DNA from: Lysobacter antibioticus HS124
GTDB lineage: Bacteria > Pseudomonadota > Gammaproteobacteria > Xanthomonadales > Xanthomonadaceae
DNA length: 64,000 nucleotides
Assembly (NCBI RefSeq): GCF_000336385.2
Contig: NZ_HG424450.1
Location: 1-64,000 of the forward strand
Direction: 5' to 3'
The notes under the pieces were generated by a model. That model saw only the letters and a list, made by a program, of their open reading frames with translations. It did no database searches and was not told the origin of the DNA. The position numbers and the translations under genes are program-made. This document shows, piece after piece, positions 12,443-49,544 of this stretch; the stretch's first letter is position 1, and each line of letters opens with the position of its first letter.

Positions 12443-12565
12443 CCGAGTGACCCATTGAGGCCGTAGAATCGTAAGTTCCTTACGTGTGCGCGCGCACACA
12501 CGCGTATAGACTTACGTTCTGACGGTCTTGTTTGGTCACTGCGGCATCGACCAAGAGACAAAACA
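12443..12565. promoter_or_regulatory. Palindromic intergenic region, candidate origin or operator
   Basis: Between the primase-helicase and RuvC genes. CGTAAG-TTC-CTTACG (12470-12484) is an inverted repeat that runs directly into the 16-base perfect palindrome GTGTGCGCGCGCACAC (12484-12499). CTTACG recurs at 12511-12516 and again just inside the next gene. Iterated hexamers plus palindrome next to a replicative helicase suggest an origin or a regulatory site; neither is proven. Confidence 0.4.
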
Positions 12566-13120
12566 ATGACTTACGAAGCACGCGAGCAGGGTGAAGAGCC
12601 CGGCATCGCCAAAGCTGATCAGCTCTACCCATCGGCGCACTCCGGACACGACGACCAGGCGCCCACCATCCTCGCACTCGATCTGGGCACGAGCTTGGGT
12701 TGGGCACTGCGGTTCACCGGTTTGGTCATCAGCGGCACCGAGCACTTCAAGCTGGGTCGCTTCGAAGGCGGCGGCATGCGCTACCTGCGCTTCGCCCGCT
12801 GGCTGGATGAGGCCCGTGCCTTTGCCGGCCCATTCGAGGCGGTCTACTTCGAGGAGGTGCGTCGGCACCGCGGTGTAGATGCCGCGCACGCATACGGCGG
12901 CTTCCTGGCGCAGCTCACCGCTTGGTGCGAGCAATACGGGATTCCCTATCAGGGGGTGCCCGTCGGTACGATCAAGAAGTTCGCCACCGGCAAAGGCAAT
13001 GCGGACAAGGCCGCCATGGTCGCGGCGGCGCAGCAACGGGGGCATCACCCGAAGGACGACAACGAAGCCGACGCGCTTGCCCTGCTGTACTGGGCGGTGG
13101 TTCAAGGAACGGCAGCATGA
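12566..13120 (+). CDS. RuvC-like Holliday-junction resolvase
   Basis: 184 residues with an RNase H-fold nuclease pattern: ILALDLGTSLGWA (Asp39), AVYFEEV (Glu96/97), and a C-terminal DDNEADALALLYWA (Asp165/Asp169). These acidic residues correspond to the RuvC active site. It would resolve branched recombination or replication intermediates before packaging. It lacks canonical RuvC dimer motifs, as usual in phage versions. The first 30 residues look disordered. Confidence 0.85.
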   Translation: MTYEAREQGEEPGIAKADQLYPSAHSGHDDQAPTILALDLGTSLGWALRFTGLVISGTEHFKLGRFEGGGMRYLRFARWLDEARAFAGPFEAVYFEEVRRHRGVDAAHAYGGFLAQLTAWCEQYGIPYQGVPVGTIKKFATGKGNADKAAMVAAAQQRGHHPKDDNEADALALLYWAVVQGTAA

Positions 13121-13566
13121 GCACGGTCTGGACGATCGACCGGGTCGCCGACCGCTTCCAAGAAGCGGCGATTACCGCGCGGCGTTTGCCGCCCGCACGG
13201 GTGCAGGGATACGCCTCGTTCTGGCCCGATATCCACCGCCAGTCGTGGGAGGGGTACGCCGACGAGCGCATCATTCTGCGCTTCGCTGCGTCTCCCGCCG
13301 CCATCGACCGTTTCGGCGAGACCGTGCGCTGGCTGCATTGGCTGGACGAAGAGCAGCGCAGGTTGATCTGGCTGCGAGCGCAGTACGTTCCCTGGCGCGA
13401 GGTCTGCAACCGCACGGGCTTGATCCGGAAGACCGCATGGCGCCGCTGGCAGCATGCGCTCAGTCTGGTCACGGTGCATCTCAACGGGACGTTGCCGCGA
13501 TTTGCCGACGTCGAGATAGGTTTGGCGGCCGAGAGGATTCCGGCTAACGCAGGTCAACGCGGCTAA
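13117..13566 (+). CDS. DUF6362-like phage protein
   Basis: 149 residues with the recognisable opening ITARRLPPARVQGYASFWPDI, then a helical WLHWLDEEQRRLIWLRAQ and an HTH-like VPWREVCNRTGLIRKTAWRRW. This is the DUF6362 pattern seen after RuvC-like genes in phages; a DNA-binding function is likely. ATGA overlap with the resolvase. Confidence 0.7.
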   Translation: MSTVWTIDRVADRFQEAAITARRLPPARVQGYASFWPDIHRQSWEGYADERIILRFAASPAAIDRFGETVRWLHWLDEEQRRLIWLRAQYVPWREVCNRTGLIRKTAWRRWQHALSLVTVHLNGTLPRFADVEIGLAAERIPANAGQRG

Positions 13567-13725
13567 TCGCAGTTCGGGGAACGCAATCCGCTGTCCCAAA
13601 ACTCCAAGAATTGCCCTAGTCTGATCCCCATGCTGAGCGCGCTGTGCCATGAACGCGGCGCGGTCGCTAGGGCCAGCCCGGAGTGCCTCCGCCGCCTCCT
13701 TCCGCTCCGGGTTGGTCCGCCTTTC

Positions 13726-13914
13726 CTAATGGACGATTGCTCCAAAAACAAAACAGCCCGCGCCGGACTCGTAGGCGCGACCTGTCCGCGGGTCGCTTGC
13801 CGAAGCAGACTTGGGGAAGTCACGACCCACGGCTCGAACGTAGCACGGGAAATTGTGACTTTCAGCCGAGAGATCAGTGCTCCCGACGAACGGTCCCAGC
13901 CGTGTTATGGACAT
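13726..13914 (-). CDS. Small ORF with RAYESGAG motif
   Basis: 62-codon frame ending DPRTGRAYESGAGCFVFGAIVH. Short phage ORFs with an RAY-x-SGAG segment recur in my experience of gammaproteobacterial prophages, where the same DNA forms a GC-rich stem; here GCGCC and GGCGC flank the GGACTCGTA loop at 13759-13777. It is 11 bases downstream of the DUF4096-like gene on the same strand but has no clear ribosome site. It may be an RNA structure rather than a protein. Confidence 0.35.
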   Translation of the reverse strand: MSITRLGPFVGSTDLSAESHNFPCYVRAVGRDFPKSASASDPRTGRAYESGAGCFVFGAIVH

Positions 13915-13925
13915 TCATTGCCGGC

Positions 13926-14255
13926 CTAAACAGCCCCGGGCTTGATCCACCGGCCTTCTGCAACCAAGCGGGCCAGAGCTGCACCTTCTTCGGTGTTCGG
14001 CCCCAGCGCAGCAATGACGTACTGCCACGTTCCCGCCTGGCGCCAACGGTGGTACCTCACGTAGATTGCGTGCGTCCCGCTCCATCCTTGCGACGCCAGC
14101 CTTGACCATCTTTGCCGATGCCGTGCGACCCAGAGTACTGCCGAGATGAAGCTCCGATACTCGGCTTCTGCATTGAGTAGGCGGGCTTCCAAGCCGCGTG
14201 GAATTTCAGAGACGATGGCCATCCATTGGTCGTCCGAAATGTATTGCGGACTCAT
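13926..14255 (-). CDS. DUF4096-like (IS5-type N-terminal) small protein
   Basis: 109 residues resembling the DUF4096 N-terminal domain of IS5-family transposases: ISDDQWMAIVSEIP, FISAVLWVARHRQRWSRL, GTHAIYVRYHRWRQAGTWQYVIAAL. The DDE catalytic domain is absent on every frame nearby, so this is a stand-alone DNA-binding-like protein or a transposase remnant. Phages carry similar stand-alone versions. It heads a minus-strand group with the 14266 and 14576 genes. Confidence 0.6.
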   Translation of the reverse strand: MSPQYISDDQWMAIVSEIPRGLEARLLNAEAEYRSFISAVLWVARHRQRWSRLASQGWSGTHAIYVRYHRWRQAGTWQYVIAALGPNTEEGAALARLVAEGRWIKPGAV

Positions 14256-14265
14256 TCCTGCTATA

Positions 14266-14514
14266 TCAGCCCATCCAATCGCTTCGATCCTGTTTCACCA
14301 GCGCCAGCCCTGCTGCTTCCAAAGCGGCCTTAAGCCCAATGACGCCTGTGGAATTGATGGTGTCGAACACCACCACGGCGCGTTCGCCATCGTCGGCAAC
14401 CAATCTGACATTCCAAGTCGCAGATATATGCGTAAGGCACTGGACGGCAAGTTGCCCCGCAGTGAAGGCTCTGCTATCGCAGATCCGAACCACCTTGAGT
14501 GTATGCGTGACCAT
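14266..14514 (-). CDS. Small ferredoxin-like-fold hypothetical protein
   Basis: 82 residues from ATG 14514, preceded by AGAAAGGA. The strand-helix-strand pattern is TLKVVRICDS, TAGQLAVQCLTHI, WNVRLVADDGERAVVVFDT, GLKAALEAAGLALV, ending SDWMG. The order F..L..LA / VR..V / V.FDT / L..AGL.LV / DW matches the chromosomal gene at 61756-62100 and, more loosely, the adjacent 14576-14806 gene. Function unknown. Confidence 0.6.
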   Translation of the reverse strand: MVTHTLKVVRICDSRAFTAGQLAVQCLTHISATWNVRLVADDGERAVVVFDTINSTGVIGLKAALEAAGLALVKQDRSDWMG

Positions 14515-14575
14515 TGCGTGGTCCTTTCTGCGTGATCGAACTAAGAACCGATTCACCGCCAGAGCATTGATCAGA

Positions 14576-14806
14576 TCACGAGCGCCGGGTGAATCTCCAC
14601 CGAAGACCAAAAGCCTCTAGCTGGGTCTCAAGATTGATTGGCGCACTCTCGCTTCGCGTTTCGAACGAAAGGTCCGCCTCATCGCCTTCTATTCGTACCA
14701 CTTCGACATTACGAACCCCCGGTAACCGGTTGAGAACCACCATTGCGCGGATTGCCGCGAGATTATGCTCGACTAGGCTTGTGACGCCGACAGTAAACCT
14801 GGTCAT
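14576..14806 (-). CDS. Small ferredoxin-like-fold hypothetical protein
   Basis: 76 residues with a good ribosome site (AGGAG before ATG 14806). The predicted beta-alpha-beta-beta-alpha-beta pattern is FTVGVTSL, LAAIRAMVVLNRLPGVRNVEVVRI, EADLSFET, LETQLEAFGLRWRF. It resembles the neighbour at 14266-14514 in length and layout and may be a diverged tandem duplicate. No function known. Confidence 0.6.
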   Translation of the reverse strand: MTRFTVGVTSLVEHNLAAIRAMVVLNRLPGVRNVEVVRIEGDEADLSFETRSESAPINLETQLEAFGLRWRFTRRS

Positions 14807-15170
14807 GTAGCTCCTTGTTCAGTTGAAGCAGCATTGCAACGGAGCTGGTGCGGTCTGAAGTCAAAGAGAGAGTGGAGGGTCTGCTTGGTGAAGGCGTCGG
14901 GATATCGAGCTAGATCTCGAGGCTAACCTACGTCAGGCCGTAATGGTTCAGATTCGGATCGATCGATGAGGTGAGCGACTCGTTGGCCTGCTCGCTGGGC
15001 CACCGTGCCCAGCGCCGACCGATTCCTGGTGCGATCAGGTTTCGATTATATCACTAGGGTCCTTCCTTCAGCTTAGGTACATCGGGGGGCATGGCCGCAA
15101 AACCCCGCTAGCGTCAACTTTCTTAATCGGGTTCGCAGTCGCTGCGACCCGGTTCGCACTCGGACTTCCC
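14807..15170. other. Intergenic region upstream of methyltransferase
   Basis: 364 bases with no supported gene. A hairpin CGCAG-TCG-CTGCG (15134-15146) lies 25 bases before the TTG start of the methyltransferase, and GTTCGCA occurs twice around it (15131-15137, 15152-15158). Otherwise nothing recognised. Confidence 0.4.
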
Positions 15171-16421
15171 TTGAGCCCTCAGATCGAACTGCGCCCGATC
15201 GAGGCGCTGATCCCGTTTGCCCGCAACGCACGTACGCACTCCGATGCGCAAGTCGCGCAGATCGCCGCCAGCATCGTCGAGTTCGGGTGGACGAATCCGA
15301 TCCTGGTCGATGGCAACAACGGCATCATCGCCGGCCACGGCCGGCTGCTCGCCGCGCGCCAGTTGAAGCTCGCTCAGGTGCCGGTGATCGAGCTGGCGCA
15401 TCTGACCCCGGCGCAGAAGCGCGCTTACGTCATCGCCGACAATCGCCTGGCCGAGAACGCGGGCTGGGACGAGGACCTGCTCCGGCTGGAGCTGGCCGAG
15501 CTGCGCGATGTCGAGTTCGACCTAGATCTGCTCGGCTTCACCGATGCCGAGCTGGACGACCTGCTCACCGACGACGACCAGACCGGGCTGACCGAGGACG
15601 ATGCGGTTCCCGAGGTACAGGAACAGCCGATCTCCCGGCGCGGCGATGTCTGGATCTGCGGCAGCCACAAAGTGTTGTGCGGTGACGCCACCGACGCGGC
15701 GGACTACGGCGCGCTACTCGGCGACGAGCTGGTGGACATGACCTTCACCGATCCGCCGTACAACGTCGACTACGCCAACAACCCCAAGGACAAGCTGCGC
15801 GGCAAGCACCGCCCGATTCTCAACGACAATCTCGGCGGGGACTTCGGCGCGTTCTTGGAAGCCTTCTGCACCCAGATCGTCGCGCTGACCAAGGGCGCGA
15901 TCTACATCGCCATGTCGTCGTCGGAACTGGATCGGCTCCAGACCGCGTTCCGCGCAGCCGGCGGCCGCTGGTCCACCTTCATCATTTGGGCCAAGAACAA
16001 GTTCACGATGGGCCATGCCGACTACCAACGGCAGTACGAGCCCATCCTGTACGGGTGGCGCGACGGCACGGAGCGCTACTGGTGCGGCGCGCGCGACCAG
16101 GGCGACGTCTGGTTCATCGACCGCACCAGCAAGAACGACCTGCACCCGACCATGAAACCGGTTGCGCTGGTCGAGCGTGCAATCCGCAACAGCAGCAAGA
16201 GCCGCGACCTGGTGCTTGACCCCTTCGGCGGGTCGGGCACGACGATGATCGCCTGCGAGAAGACTGGGCGCCGCGCGCGGCTGATCGAACTGGACCCGAA
16301 GTACGCCGACGTGATCGTCCGGCGCTGGCAGGACCACACCGGCCAGGCGGCGATCCGGCAAGGGGACGGGGCCCGCTTCGAAGATGCTGCCAGCGAACCT
16401 GAGCCGGTGGAGGCCGAATGA
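15171..16421 (+). CDS. ParB-domain DNA methyltransferase (N6-adenine/N4-cytosine)
   Basis: 416 residues, two domains. Residues 1-95 are ParB-like (IELRPIEALIPFARNARTHS, GIIAGHGRLLAA). The rest is a beta-class amino-methyltransferase, with the catalytic DPPY box (TDPPYNVDY, about 194-202) before the SAM-binding motif (VLDPFGGSGTT, about 347-357). It should methylate phage DNA, probably against host restriction. The start is TTG 15171, as no ATG/GTG fits the conserved N-terminus. It overlaps the next gene by 4 bases (ATGA). Confidence 0.92.
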   Translation: MSPQIELRPIEALIPFARNARTHSDAQVAQIAASIVEFGWTNPILVDGNNGIIAGHGRLLAARQLKLAQVPVIELAHLTPAQKRAYVIADNRLAENAGWDEDLLRLELAELRDVEFDLDLLGFTDAELDDLLTDDDQTGLTEDDAVPEVQEQPISRRGDVWICGSHKVLCGDATDAADYGALLGDELVDMTFTDPPYNVDYANNPKDKLRGKHRPILNDNLGGDFGAFLEAFCTQIVALTKGAIYIAMSSSELDRLQTAFRAAGGRWSTFIIWAKNKFTMGHADYQRQYEPILYGWRDGTERYWCGARDQGDVWFIDRTSKNDLHPTMKPVALVERAIRNSSKSRDLVLDPFGGSGTTMIACEKTGRRARLIELDPKYADVIVRRWQDHTGQAAIRQGDGARFEDAASEPEPVEAE

Positions 16422-17458
16422 CCCGCCCGGCCTACTACAACGAGAACGATCCCTACCTATGCGACTGGCTGCGCAACCTGATCCGGGCCAGGCAGATCCC
16501 GGCCGGCGACGTCGATGACCGGGACATCCGATCTGTTTCCGCCGCCGATGTCCGCGGCTACGCCCAATGCCACTTCTTCGCGGGCATCGGCGGATTCGCC
16601 TACGCCGCCCGGCTCGCCGGCTGGCCGGAGGACGAGCCCCTCTGGACCGGCGGCTTCCCCTGCCAGCCGTTCAGCGTCGCTGGGCGCCAACGCGCGCAGG
16701 CGGATGACCGTCACCTCTGGCCGGAACTGCATCGCCTTATTGCACAAGCGCGACCCGCTCTATTCCTGGGCGAGAACGTTGCTGGCCTCATCCCGTTGGG
16801 GCTCGACGGAGTTCTCGCTGACCTGGAAGGCGAAGGCTACGCCGGCCGGGCGATGGTTGTTCCAGCTTGCGCCGTCAACGCCCCCCATCGACGGGACCGG
16901 GTTTGGATCGTCGGCAAGCGTCTGGCCGACGGCCGTGGGGAACGACGACAACAAGTCGCCTGCGGCGCGCTTGGCGATGAAATCCCGGATGCCGGGCGGG
17001 CCGCGCAAGGCGATCACCAGCTTGCAGGTGGCGGCCAAGGCGGTTTGGCCGACGGCCACGGCGAACGATGCCGAGAAGCGCGGCGACTTTGCGGCCGAGC
17101 GACGCAATGGCCTGCCGGGGGTGGCGAAGGCGGTGTGGAGCACCCCGCGCGCGAGCGACGGGGAGAAGGGCGGGCCGAACCAGGCCTTCGGCAGCGGCAG
17201 CACGCAGCCGCTCCCGGCGCAGGCAGTATGGGCAACACCGACGACGCGGGACCACAAGGATGCATCGAGCGTTGGCAGCGCGCCGGAGAATGGGATGCTT
17301 GGGCGACAGGTCGCACCCTCGCCGGCCGGCGGATACCTGAACCCAGAATTCGTCTTCTGGCTCATGGGATACCCGGAAGAATTCCTCGGCTGCGCGCCGC
17401 CGGCAACGCGATCGTCCCGCAAGTCGCCGCCGAGATCCTGAGAGCACTGCGCCCCTGA
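16418..17458 (+). CDS. DNA cytosine-5 methyltransferase
   Basis: 346 residues. The motifs are in canonical order: I (FFAGIGGFAYAARLAGW, 53-69), IV (GGFPCQPFS, catalytic Cys82), VI (GENVAGL, 118-124), VIII (HRRDRVWIVG) and X (RLRAAGNAIVPQVAAEIL). It methylates cytosine C5. Between VIII and X are four degenerate repeats (LADGRGER, LADGHGER, VEHPARER, MGNTDDAG) in the target-recognition region. A second long reading frame at 16515-17441 overlaps it. Coupled to the upstream methyltransferase. Confidence 0.9.
   Translation: MTRPAYYNENDPYLCDWLRNLIRARQIPAGDVDDRDIRSVSAADVRGYAQCHFFAGIGGFAYAARLAGWPEDEPLWTGGFPCQPFSVAGRQRAQADDRHLWPELHRLIAQARPALFLGENVAGLIPLGLDGVLADLEGEGYAGRAMVVPACAVNAPHRRDRVWIVGKRLADGRGERRQQVACGALGDEIPDAGRAAQGDHQLAGGGQGGLADGHGERCREARRLCGRATQWPAGGGEGGVEHPARERRGEGRAEPGLRQRQHAAAPGAGSMGNTDDAGPQGCIERWQRAGEWDAWATGRTLAGRRIPEPRIRLLAHGIPGRIPRLRAAGNAIVPQVAAEILRALRP
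16515..17441 (+). CDS. Overlapping alternate-frame ORF inside the cytosine methyltransferase
   Basis: A 308-codon frame lies entirely within the methyltransferase gene. Its sequence is not random-looking: STEFSLTWKAKATPAGR, four copies of a W-(P/S/A)-T-(A/P) unit (VWPTAVGND, VWPTATAND, VWSTPRASD, VWATPTTRD), LNPEFVFWLMGYPEEF and a CAPPATRSSRKS end. I recognise this layout from separately annotated phage proteins. Whether it is translated here, or those annotations are themselves shadows of methyltransferase genes, cannot be settled from one sequence. No ribosome site is obvious. Confidence 0.3.
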   Translation: MTGTSDLFPPPMSAATPNATSSRASADSPTPPGSPAGRRTSPSGPAASPASRSASLGANARRRMTVTSGRNCIALLHKRDPLYSWARTLLASSRWGSTEFSLTWKAKATPAGRWLFQLAPSTPPIDGTGFGSSASVWPTAVGNDDNKSPAARLAMKSRMPGGPRKAITSLQVAAKAVWPTATANDAEKRGDFAAERRNGLPGVAKAVWSTPRASDGEKGGPNQAFGSGSTQPLPAQAVWATPTTRDHKDASSVGSAPENGMLGRQVAPSPAGGYLNPEFVFWLMGYPEEFLGCAPPATRSSRKSPPRS

Positions 17459-17489
17459 CGCTGCGCGGCGCGGGGCGACGGCCCAAGCA

Positions 17490-17771
17490 TCAGGCGAGTT
17501 CGAACTGGCCGACGGTCCCGTTGTAGCGCAGTTGGACACCGCCGCGAATCGGCGTGCAGCCAACTACCCAGAAATTCAAGCGGTACAGATCCCGGTAGGC
17601 CAGCGCGTCTCGGGCTTGCGTGTCGGACAGGCCGACTTCGGTCAGGTACTGTGCCAGTTCGGCGTCGCTGCTGCTTTCATCGTTGGACAAGATCTCTTCG
17701 ACCAGCTGAAGGAGCGTGGCCGGCAAGGCGGCGAGATCGTATTCTGACTGGGTTGGCACTGCGTCTTGCAT
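17490..17771 (-). CDS. Cassette-array gene 1, hypothetical
   Basis: 93 residues from ATG 17771, with GGAG 7 bases upstream; an in-frame ATG at 17798 inside the control module would add nine residues (MASQPRRTT). Helical N-terminus (LPATLLQLVEEILSNDE, DAELAQYLTEVGLSDTQARDALAYRD), beta-rich C-terminus. No family recognised. First of six genes with the shared upstream module at 17796-17878. Confidence 0.6.
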   Translation of the reverse strand: MQDAVPTQSEYDLAALPATLLQLVEEILSNDESSSDAELAQYLTEVGLSDTQARDALAYRDLYRLNFWVVGCTPIRGGVQLRYNGTVGQFELA

Positions 17772-17795
17772 GGTGGTTCTCCGTGGCTGGGAGGC

Positions 17796-17878
17796 CATGA
17801 ACGCTTCATCGCGACGGAACATCAAGCGGATTCTCGTGTGATCTGCTGCTGGAATCGCGGCAGACAAGAACGAGACAG
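17796..17878 (-). promoter_or_regulatory. Shared control module, copy A
   Basis: Reading the minus strand: CTGTC (17878-17874), 6 bases, TTGTC (17867-17863); then TTG beginning at 17825; then TGAAGCGTTCATG at 17808-17796, forming the dyad ATGAA-GCG-TTCAT. TTG to TGAAGC is 17 bases, as in the other copies. The second half-repeat ends 55 bases before the dyad. Confidence 0.7.
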
Positions 17879-17905
17879 CGAGCCGGACAGGCGTCCGGCT
17901 CGCTG
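17876..17905 (-). terminator. Hairpin terminator after DUF3489-like gene
   Basis: 13-bp perfect stem CAGCGAGCCGGAC / GTCCGGCTCGCTG (17876-17888 with 17893-17905), loop AGGC. It lies 8 bases beyond the stop of the minus-strand gene at 17913 and overlaps the first CTGTC of control module A. Confidence 0.7.
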
Positions 17906-17912
17906 GGTGGGC

Positions 17913-18518
17913 TTACTCTTCTTCGTCGGCCTGCGGGCCGGTGTTGCCGGCGTCCGCTTGCGGCGCCTTGGTCGCGATGCGGTACACCCGATCGCCCTGG
18001 CCTTCCTTGGTGTTGGTCACGGTGTAGCCCTTCTTCTTAACCGCGCCGGCGAGGAAGCCGCGCACTGAGTGCTGCTGCCAGGCGGTCTTGGTCATGATCT
18101 CGGCGATGGTGGCGCCCTCCGGCCGCATCAGCATGCCGACCACCGTGGCCAACTTCGTGTCGCCGCGCTCGGCACGCTTCGGCCTAGCCGGTGCGGGTGC
18201 GGGCTCGGGCGCGGGAAGTGCATGGTCCGAACTCGGCTCCGTGCCTTCGCCCGCATCGGCCTCCGGCTCGGCACCTGCATTCTGGCTGGCGGTGTCCTCG
18301 CCAGCCGGCTCATTGGCGCCGATTGCCGCGTAGCCGGCGGCGGTGAGGCGGTAGCCGGCATCGTGCGCTTCGACCAGTTCGTTTCGCAGCAGGCCGCGCA
18401 CGACGCTGGTGCGCGCGCCCCCCTGCAAGCTGGCGGGGTAGCGCTCGATGCGGCCTTCGGTGTCGAGGGCCAGTTCGAGAACGCTGCGCTGGTTGGGGGA
18501 CAGTTCGATGGTGCTCAT
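17913..18518 (-). CDS. DUF3489 domain protein
   Basis: 201 residues from ATG 18518 (MSTIELSPNQRS), with AGGAGC at the ribosome site. The N-terminal winged-helix-like part (YRLTAAGYAAIGA) and a Pro/Ala linker lead to the DUF3489 core: KLATVVGMLMRPEGATIAEI, KTAWQQHSVRGFLAGAVKKKGY, GDRVYRIA. DUF3489 proteins are common in phage and integrative-element arms and are probably DNA-binding. Usually this family neighbours DUF2924; here it is 17 kb away. Confidence 0.8.
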   Translation of the reverse strand: MSTIELSPNQRSVLELALDTEGRIERYPASLQGGARTSVVRGLLRNELVEAHDAGYRLTAAGYAAIGANEPAGEDTASQNAGAEPEADAGEGTEPSSDHALPAPEPAPAPARPKRAERGDTKLATVVGMLMRPEGATIAEIMTKTAWQQHSVRGFLAGAVKKKGYTVTNTKEGQGDRVYRIATKAPQADAGNTGPQADEEE

Positions 18519-18718
18519 GGTTGTGCTCCTTGGATAGGGTGATGCAATTCGTATGCGCGGCGGGGACCAACCCATTCGCCGCTGGGGTCCAGCCCGCGAC
18601 GAATCAGTTCGTCGCGAGCCAGTTGATTGAGGTCGAGGGCTCCGCTGGCGGCGACGACTAGCACCGAGCTGTGCACCGCCTTGAGGAACCTGAGTTCAGG
18701 GCTGCTCGGCAAGAACAT
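18515..18718 (-). CDS. Small hypothetical protein
   Basis: 67 residues with LARDELIRRGLDPSGEWVGPRRAYE, a pattern familiar from short phage proteins of unknown role. ATGA overlap into the DUF3489 gene and a 23-base overlap with the upstream gene indicate a three-gene operon (18932 to 17913). Confidence 0.6.
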   Translation of the reverse strand: MFLPSSPELRFLKAVHSSVLVVAASGALDLNQLARDELIRRGLDPSGEWVGPRRAYELHHPIQGAQP

Positions 18719-18932
18719 CGGCGATGGCCTCGCGCATCTGGATCTCGCCGGAGACCAGCCCCAACAAGATGTCCCCGGGCAAGGTTTCCAAAAGCTGCTC
18801 GGCTCGGCGCTCGAGTTCGCGGGCGGCGGCGCCGTACCAGTCCGCGTAGGCGGTCAGCTGCGCCAGCTTCGCGCGGTCAGCCCGCTTCATGCCGCGCAGG
18901 AAATTCTTGAGCTGTTCGGTTTGCACTTTCAT
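18696..18932 (-). CDS. Cassette-array gene 2, hypothetical
   Basis: 78 residues from ATG 18932 (MKVQTEQLKNFLRGM), ribosome site GGAGG. Almost entirely helical, with WYGAAARELERRAEQLLETLP. No family recognised. The shared control module B lies 34 bases upstream of the start. First gene of the operon 18932-17913. Confidence 0.65.
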   Translation of the reverse strand: MKVQTEQLKNFLRGMKRADRAKLAQLTAYADWYGAAARELERRAEQLLETLPGDILLGLVSGEIQMREAIADVLAEQP

Positions 18933-18965
18933 CGCTGGCCTCCGTGGCCGTCGTTGGTGTGGCGA

Positions 18966-19049
18966 CATGAACGCTTCACCCTGCGGAGAAGCCAAGCGGT
19001 CTTCGCGACAAAGAACGCGCGTTCTCCAGCGTGTACAGGTGTCTGACAG
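18966..19049 (-). promoter_or_regulatory. Shared control module, copy B
   Basis: Minus strand: CTGTC (19049-19045), 6 bases, CTGTA (19038-19034); TTG beginning at 18995; TGAAGCGTTCATG at 18978-18966. TTG-to-dyad spacing 17; half-repeat-to-dyad spacing 56. It is divergent from copy C, and the two share a 250-base intergenic region. Confidence 0.7.
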
Positions 19050-19062
19050 GTTCACTCAGAAG

Positions 19063-19127
19063 CTGTCGGCTTCCTGTCTGCGCCGCTACGGATTCGCTTG
19101 GCTTTGCCGCCGAATGAAGCGTTCATG
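19063..19127 (+). promoter_or_regulatory. Shared control module, copy C
   Basis: CTGTC (19063-19067), 6 bases, CTGTC (19074-19078); CTTGGCTT with TTG at 19098; TGAAGCGTTCATG at 19115-19127. TTG-to-dyad spacing 17; repeat-to-dyad spacing 37. Confidence 0.75.
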
Positions 19128-19167
19128 TCGACGCCGCAACGGAGCGGCGAGTGCCAGGAACCTCACC

Positions 19168-19425
19168 ATGAAGATTGAAATTGCACAGACCCACCTGTTT
19201 CGCACCGCTCATGCGCTGCAAGAAGCATGCGCCAACCGCCTCGCGGACATGGCGGTGCAGATGGCCCCGCGCCTTAGCCCCGAGGAGCTGGAGGCGGCCA
19301 AAGCGTTAGCCACCGAGTCCCTGCGCCTTATCCAGGCGTTGTTCGAAGCCAACGATAGGGAGTTCGAACTCAACATCGATGTGAACATGACGGTCGAATA
19401 CCTCAACGGCCTGGCCGACGCCTGA
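19168..19425 (+). CDS. Cassette-array gene 3, hypothetical
   Basis: 85 residues, mostly helical: FRTAHALQEACANRLADM, LSPEELEAAKALATES, EFELNIDVNMTVEYLNGLADA. It aligns end to end with the next gene (19609-19857): F-x-TA-x-AL, LS-x-x-EL-x-AAK-x-L, EFE, LN-x-A. The two are tandem duplicates. Function unknown. Confidence 0.7.
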   Translation: MKIEIAQTHLFRTAHALQEACANRLADMAVQMAPRLSPEELEAAKALATESLRLIQALFEANDREFELNIDVNMTVEYLNGLADA

Positions 19426-19444
19426 GCCAGACGAAGAGCGAAGT

Positions 19445-19469
19445 CCCCAGCGCCTGCCGGGCGCTGGGG
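19445..19469 (+). terminator. Cassette terminator 1
   Basis: CCCCAGCGCC (19445-19454) pairs with GGCGCTGGGG (19460-19469), followed by TTCCCTCTTC. The same stem sequence and tail recur after the next two closed cassettes. Confidence 0.75.
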
Positions 19470-19496
19470 CGTTCCCTCTTCGGTTCTAGGCCGACG

Positions 19497-19569
19497 CTGT
19501 CCCTGTGCTGTCTGCCCGACCATGGACCGCGATATTCACTTGCGATTCCGCTCGAAGGAAGCGCTCATG
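19497..19569 (+). promoter_or_regulatory. Shared control module, copy D
   Basis: CTGTC (19497-19501), 6 bases, CTGTC (19508-19512); TTG at 19540; GGAAGCGCTCATG at 19557-19569, the most diverged dyad copy. Spacings 17 and 45. It begins 27 bases after the preceding terminator. Confidence 0.65.
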
Positions 19570-19608
19570 CCCACGCCGCACCATCGCGGCCAACTTGAGA
19601 GCGAAACC

Positions 19609-19857
19609 ATGTCGAACATGTCTTACTGCCGATTCCAGAACACGGCCATTGCTTTGAGAGATTGCGAACACGCGTTGGAAGAAATGACCGACGGTGACCC
19701 CGAGAAGCTTAGCGGGGACGAGCTGAGCGCGGCGAAGCAACTGGTCGCCAGTTGCGTCAACATCGTCCAGCGACTGGCTGAGCGTGGCGAATTGGAATTT
19801 GAGCCGGACATGGACCTTGCACCGGTACTTAAGGAGCTGAACGACGCCGCTGGCTGA
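19609..19857 (+). CDS. Cassette-array gene 4, hypothetical (paralog of gene 3)
   Basis: 82 residues from ATG 19609 (MSNMSYCRF), tandem paralog of the 19168 gene: FQNTAIALRDCEHALEEM, LSGDELSAAKQLV, LEFEPDMDLAPVLKELNDAAG. An upstream in-frame ATG at 19567 would extend it by 14 residues from within the control module. Function unknown. Confidence 0.7.
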   Translation: MSNMSYCRFQNTAIALRDCEHALEEMTDGDPEKLSGDELSAAKQLVASCVNIVQRLAERGELEFEPDMDLAPVLKELNDAAG

Positions 19858-19871
19858 TTGCGGAGAGCGTC

Positions 19872-19901
19872 AACCCCAGCGCCCGATCGGGCGCTGGGGT
19901 T
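19872..19901 (+). terminator. Cassette terminator 2
   Basis: Perfect 30-base palindrome with 15-base arms (AACCCCAGCGCCCGA and its complement) followed by TTTCCCTCTTC. Same stem family as the terminators at 19445 and 21225. Confidence 0.85.
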
Positions 19902-19927
19902 TTCCCTCTTCTGCCGCGCGCCGCAAG

Positions 19928-20002
19928 CTGTCCGTCGCCTGTCTGCCGGAACCTACTACCTCGCTTTCACGCTTTGAATCGCAGGGGATTGAAGCGTTCA
20001 TG
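19928..20002 (+). promoter_or_regulatory. Shared control module, copy E
   Basis: CTGTC (19928-19932), 6 bases, CTGTC (19939-19943); GCTTTG with TTG at 19974; TGAAGCGTTCATG at 19990-20002. TTG spacing is 16 here instead of 17; repeat-to-dyad 47. Confidence 0.7.
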
Positions 20003-20040
20003 CGATCGCCGCGCTGGGCGGCGATCGAGGAACAGCAACA

Positions 20041-20547
20041 ATGGATTTCGAACGAGATCTCTTCACTCTGCGTGCGTTGGGGAGCCAGATTCGATGGCTG
20101 CTGACCGCGCCGACGGATTTGGAGCCGGTCTGGGAGTACGGCACGTGCTCGGTGGACGGATGTGCCGCCTTGACCCGGTTCTTGGAGCCCTGGACGCGGA
20201 TCGACCGGGCACGGCGTATCGACGGCATCGAACTGCACGCGCGGGTGGCCGTGGTGAACGAGGAAATGGGGCGGTGGAGTTTGCGCGTCCTCAGCGGCGC
20301 CAATCGCCTCAAGCAACGCCCCAAGCGCCGAAACGAAGCGGTCGCCGCCCTCCTTGCGGCCACGGCGCAGCAGATCGAGGACTACCTGGAGTGCCGGTCG
20401 CCGCTGACGCCGCGCCAGTGGGTCGAGAAGGCACTCGTCTCGGTCGAGCGGCTGCACGTGCTGCGATCCCGCGACGCCGACTTCCAGCATGCGATCAGCT
20501 TAGCGGCCGGCGGATTGGAAGAGGCGTTGGGCCAGTTTCCCGAGTAG
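20041..20547 (+). CDS. Cassette-array gene 5, hypothetical
   Basis: 168 residues; helical ends and a beta-rich middle (EPVWEYGTCSVDGCAALTRF, GIELHARVAVVNEEMGRWSL). No known family or catalytic motif. No canonical cassette terminator follows; only a weak hairpin overlapping the next CTGTC repeat. Confidence 0.65.
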   Translation: MDFERDLFTLRALGSQIRWLLTAPTDLEPVWEYGTCSVDGCAALTRFLEPWTRIDRARRIDGIELHARVAVVNEEMGRWSLRVLSGANRLKQRPKRRNEAVAALLAATAQQIEDYLECRSPLTPRQWVEKALVSVERLHVLRSRDADFQHAISLAAGGLEEALGQFPE

Positions 20548-20567
20548 GTAATGGGCGCCCGGCGAAG

Positions 20568-20641
20568 CTGTCGGGCACCTGTCCGTCGTCATCGTGTGCC
20601 GCAAGTTCTGCTTGGCTTCCGCCGCAAATGAAGCGTTCATG
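20568..20641 (+). promoter_or_regulatory. Shared control module, copy F
   Basis: CTGTC (20568-20572), 6 bases, CTGTC (20579-20583); CTTGGCTT with TTG at 20612; TGAAGCGTTCATG at 20629-20641 preceded by A, a full ATGAA/TTCAT dyad. Spacings 17 and 46. It is the closest match to copy C. Confidence 0.75.
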
Positions 20642-20678
20642 CCGCTGCCGCAACGACGCGGTGTGAGAGAAACGAACC

Positions 20679-21209
20679 ATGAACCAGGACGTATTCATCT
20701 CGGACGCTGAGCTTCGAAGCCTCAGCGACTATTTGGAACGGATACTGCGGTCCGGACACACCTTTTCACAACCCGGATCAAAGTTGACGTTGTTCGCCTG
20801 CTATGGCTTGGCCAGCATCTTCGCCGAGCGTACGGATGCGGTTCTAACGCGCCGCCTCGACCCGAAGGACATTGGGCAGCTGGTGGCCGAGTGCCGTAGG
20901 GAGCTGGCGCCAGTGGAGCGCACCATAGATCAGACCGGCAGTTGGTCCGCGAAGCGCTGGGTTCCCAGCGAGCTCTGCGCGGACGAGATGACGTTGCGCT
21001 GGTTGCACGATGAGATCGCGCGCTACATCGAAGGGCTGGAGCCGGAATTCGTAGGATTGCCGGTGCATCAACTCAATCGAGCGGTACAACAGGCCCGGTT
21101 GATGCAGGTGTGGGACGTGGCGGACGCCAAGTACCAGCCCAGCCTCCGCTCGGCCATTCGATATCTGGAGCAAGCCATCACGGCCGCGATGTGCGCGCCA
21201 CGCAACTGA
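20679..21209 (+). CDS. Cassette-array gene 6, hypothetical
   Basis: 176 residues, mostly helical (AELRSLSDYLERILRSG, LDPKDIGQLVAECRRELAPVERTID, SLRSAIRYLEQAITAAM). No family recognised. Last member of the array; the packaging genes begin after its terminator. Confidence 0.65.
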   Translation: MNQDVFISDAELRSLSDYLERILRSGHTFSQPGSKLTLFACYGLASIFAERTDAVLTRRLDPKDIGQLVAECRRELAPVERTIDQTGSWSAKRWVPSELCADEMTLRWLHDEIARYIEGLEPEFVGLPVHQLNRAVQQARLMQVWDVADAKYQPSLRSAIRYLEQAITAAMCAPRN

Positions 21210-21224
21210 TCCCCTGAGAGCGCG

Positions 21225-21254
21225 CACCCCAGCCCCTTGGTGGGGGCTGGGGTG
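21225..21254 (+). terminator. Cassette terminator 3
   Basis: CACCCCAGCCCC (21225-21236) pairs with GGGGCTGGGGTG (21243-21254), followed by TTCCCTCTTCCC. It separates the cassette array from the late operon. Confidence 0.8.
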
Positions 21255-21328
21255 TTCCCTCTTCCCTTCACCCTGATCTGCGCCGATGGCCGGCGGTCGC
21301 GGAGGCCCGAACCTGCGATTGACCGCCT

Positions 21329-21874
21329 GTGGGAATCAGCATCCGCGCCTACGGGCGCCATCGCGGCGTCTCCGACACCGCCGTCCGCAAAGCCATCGCC
21401 ACCGGGCGCATCTCGGCGTTGCCGGACGGCACCATCGATGCGGCCCGCGCCGACGCCGAGTGGGACGCCAACACGGCCAAGGCCGAGCTGGCTGAAGCAC
21501 GGGCCGCGCCCCGCCCCGCGCGGGCGCGCGCGGCGGCGGCCTTTGGCGAGGACTCCCTAGCCGCGCCGGCCGGTGCCCCCGCCAGCAACAGCTACGCACA
21601 GGCGCGGACCGCCAACGAAGTTCTCAAGGCTCAGCACCACAAGCTACGTATCGCGCAGCTGCGCGGCGAACTGATCGATCGCCAGCAGGCCATTGGCCAA
21701 GTCTTCGCCCTGGCGCGCGCCGAGCGCGACGCCTGGTTGAACTGGCCGGCACGCATCAGTTCGATGCTGGCCGCCGAGCTCGGCATCGATCCTCATGCGA
21801 TGCACGTGTCGCTGGAGCGCGAGGTGCGCCAGCACTTGGCCGAACTCGGCGACTTCGTCGCCCGCCTGGAGTGA
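21329..21874 (+). CDS. Terminase small subunit (Nu1-like)
   Basis: 181 residues starting at GTG 21329. The N-terminus is a helix-turn-helix (IRAYGRHRGVSDTAVRKAIATGRI, the DNA-recognition domain) and an Ala-rich middle follows. The C-terminal helices (YAQARTANEVLKAQHHKLRIAQLRGELI, ARAERDAWLNWPARIS) bind the large subunit. It recognises the packaging site. It is followed after 3 bases by the large subunit. Confidence 0.85.
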   Translation: MGISIRAYGRHRGVSDTAVRKAIATGRISALPDGTIDAARADAEWDANTAKAELAEARAAPRPARARAAAAFGEDSLAAPAGAPASNSYAQARTANEVLKAQHHKLRIAQLRGELIDRQQAIGQVFALARAERDAWLNWPARISSMLAAELGIDPHAMHVSLEREVRQHLAELGDFVARLE

Positions 21875-21877
21875 TCG

Positions 21878-23815
21878 TTGTACGACGGCTTCGATGAGGT
21901 CGCCCGCGCCTGGCGCGACGGGCTAACGCCCGATCCGTTCTTGGACGTGTCGGACTGGGCGGACCGGGACCGGGTGCTGTCGAGCACCTCGTCGTCGGAG
22001 CCCGGGCGATGGCGCACCGCGCGCACGCCGTACCTGCGCGACATCATGAACGACCTGTCGCCGGCCTCGGCGATCGAGCGCGTCGTATTCATGAAGGGCG
22101 CGCAGGTCGGCGGCACCGAGTGCGGGAACAACTGGATCGGCTATGTGATCGCGTGCGCGCCGGGGCCGATGATGGCCGTGGCGCCCACGGTCGAGATGGC
22201 CAAGCGCAACTCCAAGCAGCGGGTCGATCCGCTGATTGAGGAATCGCCGTCGCTGCGCGAGCGCATCGCGCCCTCGCGCGCACGCGATTCGGGCAACACC
22301 ATCCTCGCCAAGGAGTTCCGCGGCGGGGTTCTGGTCCTGACCGGCGCCAACAGCGCGGTCGGCCTGCGCTCGATGCCGGTCCGCTACCTGTTTCTGGACG
22401 AGGTGGACGGCTACCCGCGCGACGTGGAGGGCGAAGGCGACGCGGTGGCGCTGGCCGAAGCCCGCACCCGCACCTTCACCCGCCGCAAGATCCTGCTGGT
22501 GTCGACGCCGACGATTGCCGGCGCCTCGACCATCGAGCGCGAGTACCTGGCGTCCGACCAGCGCCGGTATTTCGTGCCGTGCCCGCATTGCGCCCACGAA
22601 CAATGGCTGCGGTTCGAACAGCTGCGCTGGACGTGGGACGATCCGCGCTCGGCCCGCTACATCTGCGAGGCCTGCGAGCGGCCGATCGGCGAGCATCACA
22701 AGACGGCGATGCTGGCGGCGGGTCGCTGGATCGCCATGGCGCCGCAGAACCGCGGCAAGACCGCGGGCTATCACCTGTCGTCGCTGTACTCGCCGGTCGG
22801 CTGGCGCAGCTGGGCCGACATCGCCGCCGCCTGGCAGGCGGCGCAGGACTCAGCGACCGCGCTCAAGGCGTTCAAGAACACCGAGCTCGGCGAGACCTGG
22901 GAAGAGGAAGGCGAAGCCCCGGATTGGGAGCGCCTGCTGGAGCGCCGCGAGGACTACCGGATCGGCACCGTGCCCATTGGGGGCTTGCTGCTGGCCGGCG
23001 GCGCCGACGTGCAGAAGGACCGGATCGAGGTCTCGGTCTGGGCCTTCGGCCGGGAGCGTGAGACCTGGCTGGTCGAACACCGGGTGCTGATGGGCGACAC
23101 GGCGCGCGCCGCGGTCTGGGCCGAACTGGCGGGACTGGTACGCGAGCAATGGACCCACGCCTCCGGCGCGCTGCTGCCGCTGACCCGGCTCGGCTTGGAC
23201 ACCGGCTACGCGACGCAGGAGGCGTACGCCTTCGCCCGGGACGTCGCCGACCCGCGCCTGCTGCCGATGAAGGGCGTCGGCAGCGGCGCCGCGTTGATCG
23301 GCATCCCGACCGCGGTCGATGTCAGCGTGCCGGGCAAGCGACTGCGCCGCGGCCTGAAGCTGTTCGCCGTCGCCGGCGGAATCGCCAAGCTCGAGCTGTA
23401 CAACGCCCTTCGGCTATCGATCGACATCGGCCCGGAGGGGCAACCGGTGTTTCCTGCGGGCTATGTTCATCTGCCGAAGGTCGACGGCGAGTTTCTCCAG
23501 CAGCTGACCGCCGAGCACCTGATCACCCGACGCGACCGGCATGGCTATCCGCAGCGGGTCTGGGAGAAGCGCCGCGACCGCAACGAAGCCCTCGACTGCT
23601 ACGTCATGGCGCGCGCCGCGGCGATGCAGGCCGGCGTCGACCGCTTCGAAGAACGCCACTGGCGGGAGATGGAGCGGACGTTGGGTCTGGCCCCACCGAC
23701 CGCACCGCCCGTTCCAACTGCGCTACCCCTTCCCACGGCCGCCCCTTCGGGCGGCCTTTCTGTTTCTGGCCCGCGCCCCCGGCGTCGGGTGATTTCGAGC
23801 CGTTTCATGCAATGA
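21878..23815 (+). CDS. Terminase large subunit (GpA family)
   Basis: 645 residues from TTG 21878. ATPase part: MKGAQVGGTECGNNW (deviant Walker A, about 72-86) and YLFLDEVDGY (Walker B, about 169-178). It also has a zinc-binding CPHCAHEQW...CEACERP insert and a C-terminal nuclease domain (LDTGYATQEAY ... EALDCYVMARAA). It packages DNA and cuts it, probably as a cos phage like lambda. The last 45 residues are Pro/Ala-rich and coincide with a hairpin terminator. Confidence 0.95.
   Translation: MYDGFDEVARAWRDGLTPDPFLDVSDWADRDRVLSSTSSSEPGRWRTARTPYLRDIMNDLSPASAIERVVFMKGAQVGGTECGNNWIGYVIACAPGPMMAVAPTVEMAKRNSKQRVDPLIEESPSLRERIAPSRARDSGNTILAKEFRGGVLVLTGANSAVGLRSMPVRYLFLDEVDGYPRDVEGEGDAVALAEARTRTFTRRKILLVSTPTIAGASTIEREYLASDQRRYFVPCPHCAHEQWLRFEQLRWTWDDPRSARYICEACERPIGEHHKTAMLAAGRWIAMAPQNRGKTAGYHLSSLYSPVGWRSWADIAAAWQAAQDSATALKAFKNTELGETWEEEGEAPDWERLLERREDYRIGTVPIGGLLLAGGADVQKDRIEVSVWAFGRERETWLVEHRVLMGDTARAAVWAELAGLVREQWTHASGALLPLTRLGLDTGYATQEAYAFARDVADPRLLPMKGVGSGAALIGIPTAVDVSVPGKRLRRGLKLFAVAGGIAKLELYNALRLSIDIGPEGQPVFPAGYVHLPKVDGEFLQQLTAEHLITRRDRHGYPQRVWEKRRDRNEALDCYVMARAAAMQAGVDRFEERHWREMERTLGLAPPTAPPVPTALPLPTAAPSGGLSVSGPRPRRRVISSRFMQ
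23737..23756 (+). terminator. Intrinsic-terminator-like hairpin inside terminase 3' end
   Basis: GGCCGCCC (23737-23744), loop CTTC, GGGCGGCC (23749-23756), then TTTCTGTTTC. The structure lies within the last 80 bases of the large-terminase frame. It could attenuate late transcription between packaging and head genes. Confidence 0.55.
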
Positions 23816-44371: not shown

Positions 44372-44848
44372 CTAGGGCTGAACACTGCGCGCAGGAAAAT
44401 GGAATGGCTCAGAGGTAACCCAGCACTTCTTTGTCGTCCTCAATCGAATTCGATACAAAGGCTCCGGATCGGGTCGGCTACTTGCTAGAAACTCCTTCTC
44501 CTCCCCCGGCTCGACTCTGAAAACCAGATTGGGCGGTTCAAAGTGCTCTATCACCGTCGAGTCGTTTGCCCAACGGCCGCTGTCACCTTTTGCTTCCACG
44601 AAGGCACTCAATGGATAAAGAAGAACTGGCTGCTCCTCGCTCTTGTAAGCAGAAATTTCCACTGGCTTCTTCGAATCATTTCGCACCACATAGCGGCCAT
44701 ATACAACATTCCAATCCCTTGCTCGATCTGCGTCGTTCGCAACAAACTTGACCGTCACATCACGACTGCACTCGCCAGCGATTGAAGCCGCTGGGGCTAC
44801 CAACAGTACTCCTAGCGAAAACAACAGCGAGCAGCTTAAATTGCTCAT
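44372..44848 (-). CDS. Secreted candidate immunity protein for RHS toxin
   Basis: 158 residues with a signal peptide (SCSLLFSLGVLLVAPAASIAG, cleavage near Gly/Glu). The mature part is a small beta-rich domain (GRYVVRNDSKKPVEISAYKSEEQPVLLYPLSAFVEA; FRVEPGEEKEFLASSRPDPEP) with two Cys that could pair. Its ATG overlaps the toxin stop (ATGA), the usual place for a cognate immunity gene. Periplasmic location would match an exported toxin. Role inferred from position. Confidence 0.6.
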   Translation of the reverse strand: MSNLSCSLLFSLGVLLVAPAASIAGECSRDVTVKFVANDADRARDWNVVYGRYVVRNDSKKPVEISAYKSEEQPVLLYPLSAFVEAKGDSGRWANDSTVIEHFEPPNLVFRVEPGEEKEFLASSRPDPEPLYRIRLRTTKKCWVTSEPFHFPARSVQP

Positions 44849-49431: not shown

Positions 49432-49544
49432 TGCTCCTCTCCCTGCTTCCTTAGCGCCGGCTGCTTGGGCTTGGCCACCATGGCCAATGTCCATGCCGAC
49501 ATCCTACGAATTGGCCGTATCAGCCAGCGGGACGCTAGCCACGG

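Follow-up and report, generated by a model that had tools for sequence, protein, structure and literature searches.

Among the closest described systems to the promoter set reported here are promoters served by the activators of gene transfer agents (GTAs). GafA carries a sigma-like region, engages the -35/-10 region and acts through omega, GafY acts via RpoD at promoters with a degenerate -35 element, binds far upstream (-123 to -113) and requires integration host factor (IHF), and these activators serve a main operon together with about 18 accessory promoters; BLAST relatives of GafA are annotated as DUF6456 (PMC9638019, PMC11150451). In cluster K mycobacteriophages, start-associated sequences (SAS) are located immediately 5' of start codons and have been proposed to play a translational role, and about half of them have a second element just upstream (SAS/ESAS; PMC3203893). 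In the Salmonella PhoP regulon activation depends on the helical face of the box (PMC3335776). The present study concerns six copies of a promoter-like module in a prophage of Lysobacter antibioticus HS124, located in a stretch of 64,000 nucleotides (NZ_HG424450.1, positions 1 to 64,000; the window). As far as our searches go, they belong to a promoter set which is real, widespread and undescribed as a class, akin to promoters served by phage activators. No description of this promoter class was found in the open-access literature searched, with subscription journals and preprints outside the search. Other small phage activators of phage promoter sets, P2 Ogr, lambda CII and RinA/ArpU, have binding sites that differ from those of the modules, and GafY itself is reportedly a DUF6456 protein.

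As for GafA and GafY, a phage-type activator acting on a promoter set is proposed here, and phage AcaML1, a carrier of the same core, has a weak DUF6456 match. In contrast to GafA, the phage of the window has DUF6362, and a search of the 11 Lysobacter-set records returned no DUF6456 match. Unlike the GafA and GafY promoters, the core is long and rigid. SAS and ESAS share with our modules the short asymmetric repeat before many phage genes, but the second element there consists of inverted repeats whose spacer varies, whereas here a direct repeat is combined with promoter geometry (PMC3203893). PhoP boxes resemble the modules in orientation, helical phasing, several whole-turn distances and the possibility of class I activation, but differ in half-site sequence and in that the core found here is not a sigma-70 consensus (PMC3335776).

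Positions 17797-20640 of the window contain the modules, which are flanked by two DNA methylase genes on one side and by the terminase on the other. Their putative elements are as follows, with repeat centres given relative to the predicted start:

17797..17878, minus strand: module 1, one-mismatch repeat 17863-17878, -35 TTGATG 17820-17825, -10 GTTCAT 17797-17802, repeat centre about -80.5
18967..19049, minus strand: module 2, one-mismatch repeat 19034-19049, -35 TTGGCT 18990-18995, -10 GTTCAT 18967-18972, predicted start 18960, repeat centre -81.5
19063..19126, plus strand: module 3, repeat 19063-19078, -35 19098-19103, -10 19121-19126, predicted start 19133, repeat centre -62.5
19497..19568, plus strand: module 4, repeat 19497-19512, -35 TTGCGA 19540-19545, -10 GCTCAT 19563-19568, predicted start 19575, repeat centre -70.5
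19928..20001, plus strand: module 5, repeat 19928-19943, -35 region TTTGAA 19973-19978, -10 19996-20001, predicted start 20008, repeat centre -72.5
20568..20640, plus strand: module 6, repeat 20568-20583, -35 20612-20617, -10 20635-20640, predicted start 20647, repeat centre -71.5

The initial annotation had described these copies as a CTGTC-N6-CTGTC direct repeat, a TTG and a dyad, each unit pointing at a gene. Every repeat, coordinate and gap was recovered, including the distances from repeat to GAAGCG (55, 56, 37, 45, 47 and 46 for modules 1-6), the orientation toward a gene in all six cases, and the spacing of 17 bases behind TTG in five copies and 16 in one, the TTG being displaced by one base in the 19990 copy. 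The 13-mer TGAAGCGTTCATG is exact in five places (17796-17808 and 18966-18978 on the minus strand; 19115-19127, 19990-20002 and 20629-20641 on the plus strand) and has two mismatches in the sixth (19557-19569, plus strand); a seventh two-mismatch match at 24980 is without module. Seven matches were reached in none of 100 shuffles. In the whole 5.14-Mb genome the exact 13-mer occurs only in these five places, all in the prophage, and the reversed control gave 0. For the direct repeat, four exact and two one-mismatch copies within the modules and five further one-mismatch matches elsewhere add up to 11 in the window, compared to 4.5 expected and 10 in the largest shuffle. A position weight matrix (PWM) of the core, the training set of which included the copies of the window, recovered the six modules but had no match in 20 random 64-kb sequences, and a wider PWM added one weak match (50577, 6 bits) in the window.

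The full module recurs in other Lysobacter prophages and was not seen outside the genus of the window. Searches with the full pattern recovered 12 viral-contig stretches and 10 genome-contig stretches, nine of the latter from Lysobacter and one from Flavobacteriaceae which looks like a chance match. Among sampled genomes of the family, 6 of 297 had the full module, all of them from the genus of the window (1 of 54 genera). A looser pattern recovered 26 viral stretches and 10 of 20 genus genomes. In the related phages the module is present before homologous genes, and recent duplication of a whole unit does not account for the copies. The resulting Lysobacter set comprised 115 candidates, of which 110 were kept, 68 of them non-redundant (<85% identity); five were dropped as lacking the CTTG core (L039, L057, L059, L056:2059 and L050:386).

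The symmetric ATGAA-GCG-TTCAT dyad of the initial annotation is not the conserved unit, as its left arm varies among copies. In the 68 Lysobacter copies the base 5' of GAAGCG is G, T, C or A in 54, 28, 13 and 4%, respectively, and in other phages the left arm is mostly CAGCGC. Both groups share the right half GCGTTCAT, though it is also part of the search patterns. Judged from the sequence, the apparent dyad represents the -10 part of a promoter that reads in one direction. Its core consists of CTTGGCTTC from -36 as putative -35 element, a 17-bp spacer after TTGGCT and GCGTTCAT as -10 element, with a likely start 7 nt past GCGTTCAT and a short leader, and each small gene or gene group has a copy of its own. 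Logos of the Lysobacter copies display CTTGGCTT at a fixed position 5' of GAAGCG and GCGTTCATG, but no symmetric left arm. CTTG, which in this place belonged to none of the patterns that collected the Lysobacter set, is exact in 60 of 73 copies; its bases are each conserved in 94-97% of the 68 kept copies and in 65-68 of 73 with the dropped five. A pyrimidine-purine-pyrimidine triplet (YRY), a position outside all search patterns, occurs at offset 7 from the -10 element in a fraction of 0.87 of 133 non-redundant sites in other phages and 0.85 of the 68 Lysobacter sites. At other offsets the fraction is at most 0.46, save 0.65 and 0.51 at offset 10. With the dropped rows 59 of 73 copies have YRY at offset 7, as do 12 of 17 sites reached via DUF3489 rather than via the motif. 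Because YRY 7 nt on looks like a usual transcription start, TTG would occupy -35, and GTTCAT positions -12 to -7. The pattern for the other-phage set contained CTTGGCTT, GAA and GCGTTCAT, which inflates the conservation of these letters; our claims therefore rest on positions outside the patterns.

A scan of 17400-21400 for sigma-70 consensus promoters (TTGACA, 16-18 nt, TATAAT with A at position 2) found 0 compared to 0.2 expected. No Rfam family exceeded its gathering score in window 12000-23000 or in six loci. In locus L150 (3334-3406) a SymR antitoxin-like RNA match of 42.7 bits is under the gathering score of 61. Two other readings of the core were rejected. With regard to a coding peptide (LGFxxEQRVH) or leader peptide, the open frames numbered 38, 31 and 24 of 133 compared to 30, 38 and 23 with shuffled flanks. 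With regard to an RNA element, no Rfam match exceeded gathering and the leader hairpins had little covariation (double changes in 1 of 4 pairs for 22 of 28 rows, and in 0 of 4 pairs for 23 of 31 rows). A second -10 form, GTTACT, was counted 40 times in the viral loci (L150-L264) compared to 228 for GTTCAT.

Without the repeat, the core pattern matched at least 120 IMG/VR virus stretches, and Acidithiobacillus phage AcaML1 also carries it. Outside Lysobacter the frame is kept with a different middle, CGCTTGGCTTC-N6-GAACAGCGCGTTCATR, as in AcaML1 and in 5 of 7 loci of the order around DUF3489 genes. In 106 viral loci analyzed, 77 had a DUF3489-like open reading frame (ORF) and 70 an ORF of a TerS-like cluster. 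A CTGTC repeat was beside the other-phage core in just 1 of 255 sites, and no repeat-like element was present at a fixed position upstream of these cores. Since it is absent from other phages, the direct repeat is a Lysobacter-lineage addition and not a part of the core. The idea of a promoter-like element with a phased repeat pointing at small genes is supported, with the repeat confined to Lysobacter and the core far wider. In AcaML1 a further core (L294:3046, minus strand, 34 bits) is located upstream of DUF2924/recombinase genes, and the integration genes of this phage may join the regulon.

In the related Lysobacter phages the repeat is kept at about whole helical turns from the promoter-like element, as had been proposed. 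The search patterns permitted gaps of 30-60 and the scoring range was 26-66. Gaps to GAAGCG in the 68 kept copies were 37 (5 copies), 44-47 (34) and 55-57 (29), with none outside the bands 36-38, 44-47 and 55-57; the five dropped candidates have gaps of 56, 49, 55, 29 and 50, and when they are restored 3 of 73 are outside. A stricter repeat score placed 124 of 124 PWM modules in the bands, in a set not fully non-redundant. The bands are not specific for certain genes: gaps of 37, 45/46 and 56 occur with gene family 0, and 37 and 45-47 with family 1. Over 21 family-gap combinations the mean resultant at 10.5 bp was 0.87, a value reached in 0 of 20,000 uniform draws, which kinship makes optimistic. 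In 12 divergent module pairs the distance between the two repeats is 11-13 bp nine times and 45 bp three times; in the window the repeat of module 3 is 13 bp from that of the divergent module 2. In three loci (L108, L111, L119) the second half-site is CTTAA or the repeat is lost and the core is intact, some still with a gap of 55/56.

A palindrome AGAACGNNCGTTCT at about -58, with up to two mismatches, occurs in 16 of 29 modules with gaps of 55-57 and in 0 of 39 others. Its representative in the window is as follows:

19012..19025, no strand assigned: palindrome AGAACGCGCGTTCT in module 2, of the form GAAC-N4-GTTC, centre about -58, position read by eye

The palindrome AGAACGCGCGTTCT of modules with gap 56 is a possible extra operator. 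The repeat centres in the window (-62.5, -70.5 to -72.5 and -80.5/-81.5) place the repeat upstream of the predicted -35 element on a constant helical face, as in class I geometry. CRP acts as class I activator from sites at -61.5, -71.5 and -82.5, and we take the repeat centres near -62, -71 and -81 to be class I activator positions.

The genes behind the modules and their context are:

17490..17771, minus strand: small gene (gene family 4) after module 1, ATG 36 nt 3' of GAAGCG
17913..18932, minus strand: three closely packed genes after module 2 (18696-18932, 18515-18718 and 17913-18518), the last encoding a DUF3489 protein (PF11994, E 1.5e-24)
19168..19425, plus strand: small gene, 85 aa, after module 3
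19609..19857, plus strand: small gene, 82 aa, after module 4 (phrog_8760, E 4e-11)
20041..20547, plus strand: gene, 168 aa, after module 5
20679..21209, plus strand: gene, 176 aa, after module 6, last gene ahead of terS
21329..23815, plus strand: terminase small and large subunits (context)
13117..13566, plus strand: DUF6362 protein gene (PF19889, E 3.7e-34) with a C-terminal sigma-4-like helix-turn-helix (HTH), proposed RNA-polymerase-redirecting factor

The ATGs of the window genes are 26-42 nt past the last base of the -10 element. We infer that the three-gene group of module 2 (18977, minus strand), which ends in DUF3489, is an operon. The tandem duplicates that had been noted are the genes at 19168 and 19609, whose duplication is old (35% identity over 71 aa, E 4e-9); direct comparison detected no relatedness between the 20041 and 20679 genes. 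Genes downstream of modules formed six multi-member families by single-linkage clustering. With regard to what defines moron genes, the promoter is present, and a scan for intrinsic terminators found 2 compared to 2.9 expected. A fragment of an IS5-type transposase is located at window 13926-14255, between the DUF6362 gene and the methylases.

DUF6362 was found in 33 of 36 core-bearing phage records, which were chosen by length from more than 100 loci. In a set of 200 genomes from the order that included the own one, 5 had the core pattern, and these 5 were also the ones with DUF6362 over cut-off (Fisher 4e-10), one of the copies having an internal stop; 23 further genomes had DUF6362 scores under cut-off. 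In the genus all 13 DUF6362 matches are 3-10 kb from a core, and 9 of 20 genomes have both DUF6362 and the module (Fisher 0.001). G138 has DUF6362 and cores with mostly poor repeats, and G263 only an orphan module. Foldseek searches of the PDB with the predicted DUF6362 model listed the extracytoplasmic function (ECF) sigma factor CnrH first, followed by DosR, other sigma factors and antiterminator Q21. The best match among viral models is unnamed; others include a DUF6456 protein and proteins of the sigma-4 type. PDB sequence searches gave nothing useful. DUF6456 matches, both under cut-off, were found in 2 of 36 core records (AcaML1 and G868), and DUF6456 was rejected as general factor on this count. 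In AcaML1 the weak match is gp20, at about the place of DUF6362 and two genes past gp18. The latter is a homologue of window 12566-13120, the gene directly 5' of DUF6362; it is annotated as putative polynucleotidyltransferase and is RuvC-like in our own reading.

The DUF3489 protein is predicted to contain two winged helices and had winged-helix matches in Foldseek (best E 0.018). It was found in 11 of 20 genus genomes, namely the 10 with the full module and G138 with cores. On two module contigs of G190 (C9 and C44) DUF3489 was not found, the matches being near contig ends, and in G263 a broken remnant is 7 kb from the module. G138 carries a DUF3489 remnant (C4). DUF6362 tracks the core better than DUF3489 does, and DUF3489 was rejected as sole regulator in view of its wide occurrence elsewhere without the core.

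We consider it somewhat probable that the modules are phage promoters which host RNA polymerase reads once DUF6362, or a DUF6456 protein in AcaML1, redirects it, with an added class I activator site in the Lysobacter lineage. The core would be silent in the lysogen because it poorly matches host sigma-70. DUF6362, encoded among DNA-metabolism genes, would bind polymerase or the -35 region and open the core in a GafA-like manner; in AcaML1 the DUF6456-like protein encoded at about the same place may take this part. In the Lysobacter lineage a head-to-tail activator dimer on the CTGTC pair would add a class I contact with the alpha C-terminal domain, and the DUF3489 protein, encoded in the regulon, is one candidate for binding CTGTC. 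As an outcome, small accessory proteins would be made together, in a burst, around the early-to-late switch.

Several observations weigh against this reading. Rhodobacter phage RcSwan has DUF6362 without the core (best 2.1 bits), a DUF6362 gene is lacking near an orphan module and near three small mobile elements, and 1 of 36 records has neither DUF6362 nor DUF6456, though records may be fragments. Descent of a single phage backbone may alone yield the co-occurrence of DUF6362 and core. The DUF6362 model has a mean predicted local distance difference test (pLDDT) score of 76, and its PDB Foldseek E-values are all >1. DUF3489 is without core in 27 of 29 phylum loci fetched and also occurs in core phages without repeat. 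Furthermore, the predicted start of module 1 (17790) has no YRY.

A host alternative sigma factor or response regulator may read the promoters instead, so that the genes answer a host signal and not a phage switch; this we regard as unlikely. Pho-type direct repeats have an 11-bp period as well, but the Pho box is CTGTCAT-N4-CTGTCAT, whereas A follows CTGTC in just 4 of the 68 first half-sites and 2 of the 68 second ones. The repeat geometry is also that of Pho and PhoP boxes, phased direct repeats are found with OmpR/PhoB-family activators (PMC3335776), and modules occur in elements without DUF6362; the confinement of exact 13-mers to the prophage in the own genome argues against a host regulon. 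A translational start element like the cluster K SAS, with GAAGGAAGCGTTCATG as Shine-Dalgarno sequence plus ATG, is very improbable. Roughly half the Lysobacter copies have the form GGAAGCGTTCATG, in which a purine-rich tract precedes an ATG by 7 nt, but the G of that ATG is at 39% in other phages, shuffled flanks leave the frames just as open, and the window genes have their own ATG further downstream; conserved CTTGGCTTC, the 17-bp spacing and the YRY start fit transcription. Equally improbable is a GAA-GCG-TTC dyad serving as repressor operator over a weak promoter that keeps the genes off in the lysogen. Five of the six window copies have the 13-bp near-dyad in exact form, but its left arm is unconserved in Lysobacter and mostly CAGCGC in other phages. 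Chance or recent duplication of one cassette, to which the related genes at 19168 and 19609 might point, has practically no probability in view of the lack of PWM matches in random sequence, the six gene families and the at least 120 virus stretches with the core.

A second carrier was found in three islands that contain modules and homologues of the DUF3489 operon together with HTH_17, serine recombinase and DUF2924 genes and adjoin a large gene homologous to window 44845-49494:

L103:8900-17200: small island
L104:8500-16900: small island
L109:7900-18200: small island

No structural genes were found among the island ORFs scanned, mostly those of L103, and the islands are possibly phage satellites. 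The serine-recombinase islands are without DUF6362 and may therefore be switched on by a helper phage. All three are in genomes with DUF6362 prophages, which 10 of 20 genus genomes have, and three of three are too few to prove helper dependence. Tentatively, and with less confidence than in the reading above, we propose a promoter class, absent from the literature searched, of the form GCTTGGCTTC-N6-GAA-N4-GCGTTCAT plus YRY start across phages of Lysobacter and its order, of Acidithiobacillus and of uncultured hosts, which would be read via DUF6362 as a new sigma-region-4-like family, with the regulon shared by helper-dependent serine-recombinase islands.

The sequence signature finds the regulated genes of a large, mostly uncultured group of phages. 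DUF6362, a family with unassigned function, is named as a candidate for the switch and linked to the GTA activators. Moreover, the modules offer natural whole-turn spacing variants for class I activation.

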